NCBI GenBank assembly: GCA_938002815.1
Contig: CALKZT010000004.1
Span: 1-34,499 of the forward strand
Length of the DNA: 34,499 bases
Reading direction: 5' to 3'
From: an uncultured bacterium
GTDB taxonomy: Bacteria; Desulfobacterota; DSM-4660; Desulfatiglandales; CALKZT01
Of this stretch, positions 30,347-34,388 are shown in pieces (position 1 is the stretch's first letter; each line of letters starts with the position of its first letter). The notes under the pieces were generated by a model. It was not told the origin of the DNA, did no database searches, and was given only the letters and a program-made list of their open reading frames with translations. The translations under genes and the position numbers were made by a program.

Positions 30347-31003
30347 CTATCTCCAGCCGTACTCTAAAAGTTTTTCCATAGTAATTTCTTCCCCCATATT
30401 TACAACCTTTTGGGTGTTATGTGTCAATATAGAGTACACATACTTTCCCAATATATCTACTTCAATATTCACCTTTGAACCTGGCCTCTTGTACTTGAGG
30501 GTTGTAACCTCGAAAGTGTGTGGGATGATGTTGGTCTCCACCCACTCAGGGGCGCAGGCGTTTATGGTAAGGCTTATGCCATCTATGGCTATGGAGCCCT
30601 TTTCCACCACATAGGGCCTAAGCGATCTCTCCATTTGAATCTTCATCACATGAGACCTCTCTACCAGCTTCACCGCCAGGATAGTACCCACAGAATCCAC
30701 ATGGCCGAGGACAAAGTGGCCCCCAAGCCTGTCCCCAACCTTCAAGGACCTCTCAATATTTACCAAGGCCCCTTTTGTGAGATACTTCAATGTGGATCTC
30801 TCGAGGGATTCGTGGGAGACATCCATGAAGATTTGGCCTGAAGCATATTCCACGAGTGTGAGACAGACCCCGTCCACAGCTATACTCTCTCCGATAGTGA
30901 GGTCATCCAAGGGGAATAGCGGCCTAAGCCCGATCTTCAGGCCTTGTCCGATCCTTGAGACGGTCTCAACCTGTGCTATTCCTTCCACCAATCCTGTGAA
31001 CAT
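30347..31003 (-). CDS. ribE: Riboflavin synthase alpha subunit
   Basis: It dismutates two lumazines to riboflavin. The 218-residue protein opens with [11 protein letters not shown], the family signature, and has two similar lumazine-binding barrels; the first has AVDGVCLTL and the second AIDGISLTI, starting after [15 protein letters not shown] near residue 95. It is first in the minus-strand unit ribE-ribBA-ribH-nusB-leuS-lptE-holA. The usual partner ribD is not in the window. A TATAAT at 31032-31027 is a possible -10. Confidence 0.96.
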
Positions 31004-31393: not shown

Positions 31394-31422
31394 TTGACAT
31401 ATTTCATCAATAGTGATCCAAT
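31394..31422 (+). promoter_or_regulatory. Predicted promoter of PadR-permease operon
   Basis: Perfect TTGACA (31394-31399), a 17-base spacer and TCCAAT (31417-31422, 4 of 6). Transcription would begin about 31429, inside the palindrome listed next. The padR-like ATG is at 31464 behind AAAAGGAGGTGCC. Confidence 0.55.
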
Positions 31423-31436
31423 GTCAGTACTGACAA
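31421..31436. promoter_or_regulatory. Predicted operator of the PadR-like repressor
   Basis: TGTCAGTACTGACA (31422-31435) is a perfect 14-base palindrome overlapping the end of the -10 and the expected start of transcription. With its left flank it reads ATGT-N8-ACAA, one base from the ATGT-N8-ACAT pattern known for PadR-family operators. A further half-site TGACAT overlaps the -35 (31395-31400). Confidence 0.5.
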
Positions 31437-31463
31437 AATCCATAATCAAAAGGAGGTGCCATT

Positions 31464-31853
31464 ATGTGCAAGGATATAGGGGGATTGCAAGGGGGCTTTG
31501 GTCACAACTGCTGTTTTGAGCAGCAGCCTAAATTGGAGGGCTTTATCATCCCTTGCATTCTCTTGCTTTTAAAGAAAAACCCTTCCCATGGGTACGAGCT
31601 GGTGGAGCGGCTGGGAAACCTCCATTTTTTGGAAGCGGTTCCAGATCCCGGGGTAATTTACAGACACCTACGCCGCCTTCAGGAAGAGGGGATGGTCTCA
31701 GCACGTTTAGATCCCGGAAGCGGAGGGCCTGCACGAAAGGTCTACTCCCTTACTCCGGAAGGTGAAAGCTATCTTCAGGCATGGGCTGTTCAGATTCGGA
31801 GGCGAAAAAAGTCTTTGGAGGCCTTTTTAGAGGAGCTGGACCGTGACCTTTAA
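31464..31853 (+). CDS. PadR-family transcriptional regulator with Cys-rich N-terminus
   Basis: This 129-residue winged-helix protein matches PadR regulators: SHGYELVERL (41-50), then DPGVIYRHLRRLQEEG (61-76), the recognition helix, and the wing SGGPARKVYSLTPEGESYL. A C-terminal helix (IRRRKKSLEAFLEELDRD) should mediate dimerisation. The N-terminus ahead of the DNA-binding domain is unusual, MCKDIGGLQG then GFGHNCCFEQQP, with Cys2, Cys16, Cys17 and His14; a fourth Cys is at 31. These could sense a metal or redox state. It probably represses its own promoter and the two permease genes, which overlap it. Confidence 0.88.
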   Translation: MCKDIGGLQGGFGHNCCFEQQPKLEGFIIPCILLLLKKNPSHGYELVERLGNLHFLEAVPDPGVIYRHLRRLQEEGMVSARLDPGSGGPARKVYSLTPEGESYLQAWAVQIRRRKKSLEAFLEELDRDL

Positions 31854-32322
31854 CATTGCCCTATATCTCTTAGCGGGAATAGCCCTTATCTATTCCTTTC
31901 GCCGCGACAGGCAAAAGACGAAAAGGGCGCTTCAGTCTGCCAAAAACTCTTTTTTGAACATGCTGCCTATGATGCTTGGGATTATTGGCCTGATAGGGGT
32001 CATTTTGGTTCTTATCCCCCAAGAGGTGATTGGAGGCCTCTTTGGTGGCACAAATCCTTTGGGCATGCTTCTCATTTCCATCGTGGGTGCAGTCACCTTG
32101 ATTCCCGCTTTCATTGCCTTCCCCTTTGCCTCTTCTTTGATGAAGGCAGGTGCCAGCACTGCGGCAGTAGCCCTCTTTATTACCACCTTATTGATGGTGG
32201 GTGTTATTACATTACCCCTTGAAATTAAATTTTTTGGCAAAAAGTTTACCCTCTGGCGAAATGCCCTTAGTTTTTTACTGGCTATAGTTATCGCTTTACT
32301 GATGGGGGTGATCCTTCAGTGA
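31843..32322 (+). CDS. Half-size permease, first subunit (YraQ/ArsP-like)
   Basis: This 159-residue protein has about five membrane helices (roughly 4-18, 38-58, 73-92, 105-123, 140-158) and no signal peptide. It resembles one half of the predicted permeases of the DUF318/ArsP_1 group (PF03773), normally 300 residues or more. Key stretches are IPAFIAFPFASSLMKAG (87-103) and EIKFFGKKFTLWR (127-139), both repeated in the next gene. The start is GTG 31843, with GAGGAG upstream, overlapping the regulator gene by 11 bases. Substrate unknown; metalloid or metal export is one possibility from the family, not from the sequence. Confidence 0.75.
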   Translation: MTFNIALYLLAGIALIYSFRRDRQKTKRALQSAKNSFLNMLPMMLGIIGLIGVILVLIPQEVIGGLFGGTNPLGMLLISIVGAVTLIPAFIAFPFASSLMKAGASTAAVALFITTLLMVGVITLPLEIKFFGKKFTLWRNALSFLLAIVIALLMGVILQ

Positions 32323-32831
32323 AAGATGCTCTTCGAGGCTACGGGCTATTTATTCTGGTAGTGGGGATAGACGCCTTTCTATGCTGGAATTATCCGGTAA
32401 AAGGGACTGGGGCCATCAAGGGCTCCCTGAGCTACCTAGTGGAAATGCTCCTATTTATTCCTCCCATTTTTGTCCTTGTAGGACTTTTGGATGTCTGGGT
32501 GCCACGTGCCATCGTGGAAAGGAGCGTGGGACCAGAATCTGGCATCGGAGGTGTGGTCCTTTCCATCCTTGTGGCAACAGCAGCTGCGGGGCCCCTTTAT
32601 GTGGGTTTCCCAGTAGCCGCAGCCCTCCTCAGAAAGGGTTGTAGGCTTGCCAACGCGGTAATTTTTTTGGGAACTTGGGCAACGGTTAAGATACCCATGC
32701 TGATGATGGAGATCAAATTTATGGGATTGGCCTTTTCTCTCTTGCGCTTTGCACTAACTCTCCCATCCGTAATTGCGATGGGTTACCTGATGGAGAGGGT
32801 GCTAAGACCACAAAGGGCGAAAGGGGTCTAA
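32319..32831 (+). CDS. Half-size permease, second subunit (YraQ/ArsP-like)
   Basis: This 170-residue membrane protein starts at GTG 32319, overlapping the previous stop (GTGA). It has about five membrane helices. GPLYVGFPVAAALLRKG (91-107) and EIKFMGLAFSLLR (131-143) match the same two stretches of the first subunit, and in both proteins the FP proline and the EIKF glutamate are exactly 33 residues apart. The two genes therefore look like the two repeats of one transporter, encoded separately, and probably form a heterodimer. The basic tail RPQRAKGV is likely cytoplasmic. Confidence 0.75.
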   Translation: MKDALRGYGLFILVVGIDAFLCWNYPVKGTGAIKGSLSYLVEMLLFIPPIFVLVGLLDVWVPRAIVERSVGPESGIGGVVLSILVATAAAGPLYVGFPVAAALLRKGCRLANAVIFLGTWATVKIPMLMMEIKFMGLAFSLLRFALTLPSVIAMGYLMERVLRPQRAKGV

Positions 32832-32947: not shown

Positions 32948-33637
32948 TTAAACAGCTAATAGATTTCTTTTGATTTCCTCATTTTCCATCAACTCTTTGA
33001 TGCTGGATTCATATTTGATCTGTCCTTTTTCAATTATATAGACCCGTTCTGCTACTTCTGTTGCAAAATAGTAATTCTGCTCTGAAAATAAAATGGTAAT
33101 CTCATTTCTTACTGAGGAAATTATATCAAGTAGTTGATCTACTATAACCGGTGCTAAACCTTCGCAAGGTTCATCTAATATTAGAAATGATGGGTTTGAG
33201 GCAAGAGCACGAGCAATGGCCAGTATTTGCTGCTCTCCACCTGATAGTGACCCTCCTCTCTTCCCCGCTAGTCTTTTCAAAATTGGGAAAAGATCAAATA
33301 GTACCTCCTTAGTCCATTTGCCTTTTCGGTAGTTGTGAACTACCTCAAGATTCTCCTCAACGGATAAGTCTGCAAATATTCTTCTATCCTCTGGGACATA
33401 TCCGATCCCCAGTTTGACCCTCTCATAGGTAGTTAATGAGGAGATGTCGATATCTTTAAAAAATATTTTACCAACTTTATGCCTAACATATCCCATAATA
33501 GTTTTTATGGTGGTAGTTTTCCCTGCACCATTTCTACCTAAAATACATACAATTTCATCTTTGTTCACTTCCAATGATACACTGTAAAGAACATGGGTAT
33601 CACCATAATATGAGTGAATATCTGAGATTCTAAGCAT
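32948..33637 (-). CDS. livF: Branched-chain amino acid-type ABC transporter ATPase LivF
   Basis: One of two ATPases of a Liv-type (HAAT) importer. It has 229 residues: P-loop GRNGAGKT (34-41), signature LSGGEQQ, Walker B FLILDEP. The switch position reads FSEQN, with Gln where most ABC proteins have His; this is normal for LivF. The substrate may be branched-chain amino acids, but related systems import amides, urea or aromatic acids. It overlaps livG by eight bases. The livFGM stretch is A+T-rich compared with most of the window. Confidence 0.94.
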   Translation of the reverse strand: MLRISDIHSYYGDTHVLYSVSLEVNKDEIVCILGRNGAGKTTTIKTIMGYVRHKVGKIFFKDIDISSLTTYERVKLGIGYVPEDRRIFADLSVEENLEVVHNYRKGKWTKEVLFDLFPILKRLAGKRGGSLSGGEQQILAIARALASNPSFLILDEPCEGLAPVIVDQLLDIISSVRNEITILFSEQNYYFATEVAERVYIIEKGQIKYESSIKELMENEEIKRNLLAV

Positions 33638-34388
33638 AATCCTTCTTCCCGAGATAAGCCTCTTTTACTCTTGTATTTGTTTTGATCTCTTCTGGATTAC
33701 CTGAAGCTATTATACTACCTTGGTGAAGTACGTATATTTTTTTTGCTACAGTAAAAACAACCTTCATGTCATGTTCTGTGAGGAAAAAGGTTGTACCTGT
33801 CTCTTGTGCGAGTTTTAAAATCAGTTGAATCATACCTTGAGTCTCTGCTGGATTCATCCCTGCGGTGGGTTCATCTAACAGGATGAGTTCCGGGGAACTG
33901 ACAAGGGCGATCCCAATTTCTATCAGTCTTTTTTCCCCATATGAGAGACTCCCAACCTTCCTATCCTTTATCTTAGAGATTCCAAGCAGATCAAAAGTCC
34001 TGTCGAGGTCTTTTTTGATCATCCTGTCATTTTTATAATTATAAAACAAGTTGTATGCCTTCTTTTTAGCAAATATTAGGGGAATTGTCATATTCTCTGC
34101 AACTGTAAGATTTGGGAATATGTTTAGTATCTGAAATGACCTACCTATACCTTTGAAGAAAAGTTTATGGGTTTTAACTCCTGTTATGTTTTCTCCTTTA
34201 AAGTAGATAGTGCCATTTGTGGGTTTGTATTTACCTGTAATTACATTGTAAAATGTCGTCTTACCTGCACCATTTGGACCTATTAATGCTGTAATTTCTC
34301 CCTTTGTTATAGTTAGACTTACGTCACTTAATGCTTTGAATGCGCCATAAAAGTGCGTAATGTTTTTAATTTGTAGTAGGTTTTCCAT
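33630..34388 (-). CDS. livG: Branched-chain amino acid-type ABC transporter ATPase LivG
   Basis: The second ATPase of the same importer. It has 252 residues: P-loop GPNGAGKT (37-44), signature LSYGEKR, Walker B LILLDEPTAGMNP and an intact switch His in TEHDMKVVF. GIGRSFQILNIFPNLTVAEN is typical of LivG. It begins inside the end of livM (23-base overlap), so the three genes are co-transcribed. One hand-counted line (34021-34080) has only 15 G+C in 60. Confidence 0.95.
   Translation of the reverse strand: MENLLQIKNITHFYGAFKALSDVSLTITKGEITALIGPNGAGKTTFYNVITGKYKPTNGTIYFKGENITGVKTHKLFFKGIGRSFQILNIFPNLTVAENMTIPLIFAKKKAYNLFYNYKNDRMIKKDLDRTFDLLGISKIKDRKVGSLSYGEKRLIEIGIALVSSPELILLDEPTAGMNPAETQGMIQLILKLAQETGTTFFLTEHDMKVVFTVAKKIYVLHQGSIIASGNPEEIKTNTRVKEAYLGKKDYA

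Follow-up and report, generated by a model that had tools for sequence, protein, structure and literature searches.

The window analysed here is a stretch of 34,499 nucleotides from an uncultured bacterium, and the locus of interest comprises three genes on its forward strand. The first, padR (31464-31853), encodes a PadR-type repressor of 129 aa (PF03551, E 9.5e-17) and is preceded by a ribosome-binding site, AGGAGG, read directly from the same strand at 31451-31456. It is followed by permA (31843-32322) and permB (32319-32831), which encode half-size ArsP_1 permeases of 159 aa and 170 aa (PF03773, E 1.1e-6 and 3.1e-9, respectively). permA begins with GTG within padR, an overlap of 11 bases, and permB overlaps permA by 4 bases (GTGA); these overlaps and the ribosome-binding sites speak for a single operon. 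Families, coordinates and overlaps were all verified, in agreement with the initial annotation of this DNA, which had proposed a PadR-like repressor gene and two overlapping half-size permease genes. On the 5' side lies a riboflavin operon on the reverse strand, its first gene starting at 31003, and on the 3' side are two branched-chain amino-acid type ABC ATPase genes, also on the reverse strand (32948-34388). No significant intrinsic terminator was detected 3' of permB (fold z -0.88), and no known RNA elements were found within the window.

The permease halves are assigned to PF03773 by scores close to the cut-off of 32.3 bits: permB scored 36.9 bits, and permA 28.4 bits as a protein, slightly below the cut-off, and 32.5 bits in a six-frame search, above it. 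Both align to the first half of the model and are homologous to one another (hhalign 98.6%), and each represents one ArsP-type repeat. ArsP itself is a duplicated four-helix unit, although single-unit members have also been mentioned (PMC7176098); the window genes thus encode one repeat each rather than the two four-helix repeats per chain of an ArsP exporter. The AF2 model of PermB is confident (pLDDT 88.9) and had no PDB fold match with an E value below 1, while sequence searches found no solved structure for PermA or for the full-length ArsP of the same genome. A PDB match of PermA to a CDK5 activator (E 0.08) was taken as chance.

When 84,980 species were scanned with a permA alignment, 364 relatives were found, and the best 80 of these were kept. 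Within this set all relatives were half-size, permB adjoined wherever the contig permitted, and in 63 of the 80 permA ended in ATGA, GTGA or TTGA, a coupled 4-base overlap with permB. A frameshift artefact was considered as the origin of the split and rejected, because relatives in many phyla have the identical split and overlap. As 63 of these 80 loci keep the coupled overlap and the half-size layout, the division into permA and permB is old. The C(S/T)C motif, which is present in all ArsP homologues surveyed (PMC4435449), was found in none of the 81 PermA and none of the 80 PermB proteins examined, and 61 of the 81 PermA proteins have no cysteine at all. The halves are therefore not ArsP in the functional sense set by this motif, and a thiolate transport path through the permease is unlikely, given that no half has the motif and most PermA proteins are without cysteine. 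A full-length ArsP with CSC is encoded elsewhere in the same genome (contig C31; G000:C31:762-2181, locus L043), adjoining a Thioredoxin_3 gene.

Linkage to PadR was scored as the presence of a gene resembling the window's padR (>40 bits) within the fetched stretch of a locus. The initial annotation had held that wide occurrence of the permeases without the regulator would speak against its reading, and half of this came to pass: among the best 80 of 364 loci, which were picked by similarity to the window and are related by descent, so that the counts are neither independent nor estimates for the whole family, the pair lacks such a PadR gene in 45 and has one nearby in 35, mostly in Bacillota. 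Linked padR genes are mostly directly upstream of the pair and on the same strand; in Desulfofundulus and Desulfovirgula padR is downstream of permB. All ten of the closest loci among these 80 have PadR. Presence of PadR changes state 13 times on the permA tree, which indicates repeated association of PadR with the permease, and the combined unit recurs in many lineages of oxygen-avoiding microbes. Some of the pairs without PadR have ArsR, TetR, Crp or DUF134 genes, and in the host's own order half-permease pairs are common but without this PadR; in one order relative (L039) an ArsR gene precedes the pair. Because pairs occur so widely without PadR, the permease is not tied to this regulator; it is combined with several, of which PadR is the commonest among the loci examined.

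Other genes were observed around the pairs. A small cupin-like gene is situated between padR and permA in four loci (L112:3672-3974, L115:519-821, L133:3598-3900 and L124:3620-3883), and a small protein rich in Cys and His is encoded ahead of permA in Desulfofundulus and Desulfovirgula (L077:3662-3949, with counterparts in L073-L075); the L077 protein had no Pfam match. In Erysipelotrichaceae and similar MAGs (L090, L098, L100, L101 and L108) the pair is downstream of DUF134/Nitro_FeMo-Co genes, and in some of these rhodanese-like genes also precede it. At L017:611-1417, the locus of this type included in the Pfam run, a Nitro_FeMo-Co (PF02579)-like domain is fused to the front of a permA-like half, and a separate permB-like gene comes next. 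A layout like this was seen in the order relatives L019, L021, L023, L025, L028, L029, L032 and L033, and perhaps constitutes a second split-permease arrangement with a built-in metal or cofactor domain.

PadR proteins have mainly been described as phenolic and drug sensors. The window PadR scored 61.2 bits against PF03551 (cut-off 27) and is the sole match to this family in the genome. Its AF2 model (pLDDT 82.9) has a firm winged helix and a single long C-terminal helix (residues 98-128), preceded by a disordered arm (residues 1-22, below 50 pLDDT). With 129 aa, and modelled as a monomer, the protein agrees in size and helix content with PadR subfamily 2 (PadR-s2; about 110 aa with one C-terminal dimerisation helix). 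The N-terminus reads MCKDIGGLQGGFGHNCC, with cysteines at positions 2, 16 and 17 in the arm and C31 in helix 1, so that the Cys-rich N-terminus noted in the initial annotation is indeed present. At least two cysteines precede the HGYE motif in 34 of 36 PadRs from modules of this kind and in 2 of 15 other PadRs of the host's order, an enrichment that is suggestive because the compared sets differ in relatedness. A cysteine is found at position 31 in 72% of the 36 module PadRs, and some of these proteins have few arm cysteines (e.g. L078 and L091). Together with C31, the flexible arm could coordinate a soft ion or be modified by an electrophile, and we infer, as was originally proposed, a metal, metalloid or thiol-reactive compound as inducer or substrate. 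A PadR with a CPC arm was also seen in another setting, L067:324-5539, between Thioredoxin_3/thioredoxin reductase-like genes and CobW and aquaporin genes, where no permease pair is present.

Upstream of padR, a -35 element TTGACA (31394-31399) and an extended -10 element TGA-TCCAAT (31414-31422) can be read on the forward strand, the former aligning with TTGACA of L069, L070, L112 and L115 and the latter with TGATATATT / TGATATAATG of relatives. In these relatives TTGACA-N16/17 is followed by TATATT (L069-L071) or TATAAT (L112 and L115), and by this alignment the promoter is real and correctly placed. Its description as strong could not be upheld: the -35 element is perfect, but the -10 hexamer TCCAAT (31417-31422, 17-base spacing), albeit with a TGn extension, matches the consensus at 4 of 6 positions, has no A at position 2, and a promoter scan made no call at the TTGACA/TCCAAT site.

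Two symmetrical elements overlap this promoter on the forward strand. A perfect 14-bp palindrome, TGTCAGTACTGACA (31422-31435), covers the presumed transcription start, as the initial annotation had stated, whereas conservation in relatives points to a different operator, the dyad TAGTGA-tccaatg-TCAGTA (6-N7-6, 19 bp; 31411-31429), which spans the -10 element and is overlapped by the palindrome in its right half only. Perfect palindromes of at least 14 bp arose in 0.9% of shuffles of the last 120 bases and in 4% of shuffles of the whole 460-base gap, frequencies that make the palindrome unusual yet not decisive alone. That the palindrome is the main operator and the dyad coincidental is very unlikely: symmetry of the ATCA-N4-TGAT type does occur in L069 and L071, but partial conservation of the palindrome extends only to the nearest relatives, L069-L071, and L112, L115, L133 and a group with a TATATG version keep the 6-N7-6 dyad and not the palindrome. 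By such footprinting the palindrome is disfavoured as sole operator; it is perhaps an accessory half-site.

The proposed operator dyad occurs in two versions. TAGTGA-N7-TCAGTA is shared by the window, L069 and L071, differs at one or two bases in L070 and L112, reads TAGTGG-N7-TCATTA in L115 and is perfect in L133 (TAGTGG-tatacta-CCACTA, within a 25-bp palindrome), while TATATG-N7-CATATA is found in L086, L089, L096, L110, L129, L134, L142, L146 and others. Among spacers of 0-15 upstream of module PadRs, a spacer of 7 had the largest dyad excess over dinucleotide shuffles (z=7.2); spacers of 9, 11, 5 and 1, which share the same dyads, were also raised and even spacers were mostly at background. 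When called at a score of at least 10/12 to either version, the dyad precedes 25 of 36 PadR loci (window included) versus 3 of 45 loci without PadR (Fisher p 2e-9, a nominal value as the loci are related and both versions were read off the same sequences). In the presumed recognition helix (YRxLRR), YR is followed by His in 7/7 TAGTGA loci and by N, T, Y, I or L in 18/18 TATATG loci. The seven His/TAGTGA PadRs form a single clade (support 91), and their pairing therefore counts as one event; His is also found in two outgroup PadRs outside such modules (L064 and L066; YRHLRQ). A genome-wide search for TAGTG-N9-CANTA gave 10 matches, compared with 20 for the reversed control, so there is no enrichment, and as PF03551 matches only this gene, the window PadR is best regarded as a local autoregulator. 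With the PadR-permease linkage recurring, the dyad tracking PadR and N-terminal cysteines typifying module PadRs, the proposal of a self-regulated transport operon was supported, and we regard padR-permA-permB, as judged from its sequences, as a real, recurrent module.

The unit has probably been acquired by horizontal transfer, the simplest reading of its relationships. permA is 75% identical to L069-L071 and groups with permA of MAG UBA4795 and an Armatimonadetes MAG (tree support 96), while PadR (74-81%) and permB (76%; L070) are also close to proteins of the Firmicutes MAG UBA4795 or the Armatimonadetes MAG. By comparison, the nearest permA among 60 order relatives is 46% identical (L034), and the window LeuS is 61% and 47% identical (in two pieces) to that of UBA4795 versus 66-69% to those of most order relatives. 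The case for transfer is built on identity and tree because the base composition of the unit is no different from that of its flanks, a result that also means the transfer may be old. No plasmid-borne close relatives were found, the best PadR matches being 40%. MAG UBA4795 has two copies of the module (L069:3607-4839 and L070:3465-4992), and permB of the L069 copy, at 122 aa, looks truncated.

By analogy, the best functional parallel is chrI-chrA1 of Bacillus cereus SJ1, in which the PadR-type ChrI is co-transcribed with the chromate transporter ChrA1 and induced by Cr(VI) (PMC2936356). As in the window, a small PadR gene is directly upstream of, and co-directional with, a transporter gene and there are signs of horizontal transfer; chrA-PadR pairs have been noted in many genera (PMC2936356). 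The systems differ in that ChrA1 is a CHR-family transporter, whereas the window permeases convincingly match PF03773 only; that ChrI is thought to sense chromate via basic residues, whereas the window PadR has a Cys arm; and that a toxic oxyanion is the established inducer there, whereas a soft metal(loid) or electrophile is the putative inducer here. ArsP/DUF318/TC 2.A.119 exporters (PMC4435449, PMC7176098) share PF03773 and the four-helix repeat, but in the window the two repeats are on two genes, without C(S/T)C, outside an ars operon and with PadR rather than ArsR as regulator. LmrR and bcPadR1/2, of PadR subfamily 2, resemble the window PadR in having a winged helix and one C-terminal helix, and repress an adjacent transporter through inverted operators of the ATGT/ACAT type (PMC3506622), as is predicted for the window protein. 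The pump of LmrR is an ABC transporter, however, and the window dyad is of the TAGTGA/TATATG-N7 type. To our knowledge LmrR also lacks an N-terminal Cys arm. The best named families for the permease halves are the NCBIfam families SaoE (NF040736) and SO_0444 Cu/Zn efflux (NF033936), with E values of 2e-4 to 0.2; these are full-length, and the halves score 10-20 bits against cut-offs of 300-325. For the window PadR the best named family is PhaQ (TIGR02719; 71.6 bits, below the cut-off of 139), named for regulation of polyhydroxybutyrate genes. Finally, an interaction network of Exiguobacterium antarcticum B7 links an ArsP_1 permease to a PadR-like protein (PMC6016940), but with a single permease gene and as a network prediction only.

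From the genes and their overlaps, the recurrent linkage, the conserved dyad and cysteines and the missing C(S/T)C motif, we consider it fairly probable that the unit is an efflux module, autoregulated and derepressible, that acts on a soft metal(loid) or a thiol-reactive compound. The small LmrR-like PadR would bind as a dimer to the dyad across the -10 element and block RNA polymerase, so that padR and permA-permB would be expressed at a low level. Binding of a thiol-reactive ligand (most probably a soft metal(loid) ion or another electrophile) to C2, C16, C17 and C31 would release the repressor from its operator and allow transcription of all three coupled genes. PermA and PermB, contributing one four-helix repeat each, would then pair in the membrane as one permease and export the compound.

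Arsenic is a candidate substrate because arsenite methyltransferase or ACR3 genes adjoin the pair in a few relatives (L079, L092 and L123) and ArsR is present in L039. Such neighbours and membership of the Pfam ArsP_1 family could indicate a strict ArsP organoarsenical exporter, with PadR replacing ArsR, that removes methylarsenite or aromatic arsenicals. This is quite unlikely, as the arsenic genes are mostly at loci without PadR, the module has no arsM or acr3, C(S/T)C is missing from both halves throughout and the genome keeps its full-length CSC ArsP elsewhere. Alternatively, PadR may be an LmrR-like drug sensor that takes up hydrophobic or cationic compounds in the dimer pore, with the cysteines incidental and the pump exporting these compounds. 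The small PadR-s2 build is the same (PMC3506622) and LmrR and bcPadR1 control drug and bacteriocin tolerance. The strong enrichment of the Cys arm in module PadRs makes this explanation unlikely. We also know of no drug-transport member of the permease family.

A further explanation reverses the direction of transport: the permease may import, for example, sulfur or selenium species, and PadR would respond to the thiol or sulfur status of the cell and not to a toxin. Consistent with import, a gene for a putative selenium transporter of the YedE type is found in Desulfofundulus (L072) about 700 bases 5' of the pair, and rhodanese-like and Nitro_FeMo-Co/DUF134 genes flank related pairs. Most neighbours of these types, however, come from loci without PadR or are isolated cases, the module has no uptake component and characterised ArsP relatives are exporters. 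Import is thus improbable to a similar degree as drug sensing, and efflux of a soft metal(loid) or thiol-reactive compound is the reading we prefer.

Here we have described a module for which no account was found in the open-access literature searched. Our searches gave no solved structure for the superfamily of the half-size permeases, and the split pair lets each permease repeat be studied alone. The module further illustrates that an 'ArsP_1' annotation without the C(S/T)C motif should not be taken as arsenic resistance. Regulation can readily be tested through the predicted operator in its two versions and the recognition residue that goes with them. More tentatively, and with somewhat less than even confidence, we propose that the module is widespread in anaerobes, that its Cys-armed PadRs are metal(loid) or electrophile sensors of a new, thiolate-based class, and that its two-gene permeases, without a fold match among solved structures, act on a substrate other than organoarsenicals. 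If true, the Cys-armed PadR could serve as a biosensor part, and such a transporter-linked branch of PadR would extend the sensors of anaerobes by a class for soft metals or electrophiles.
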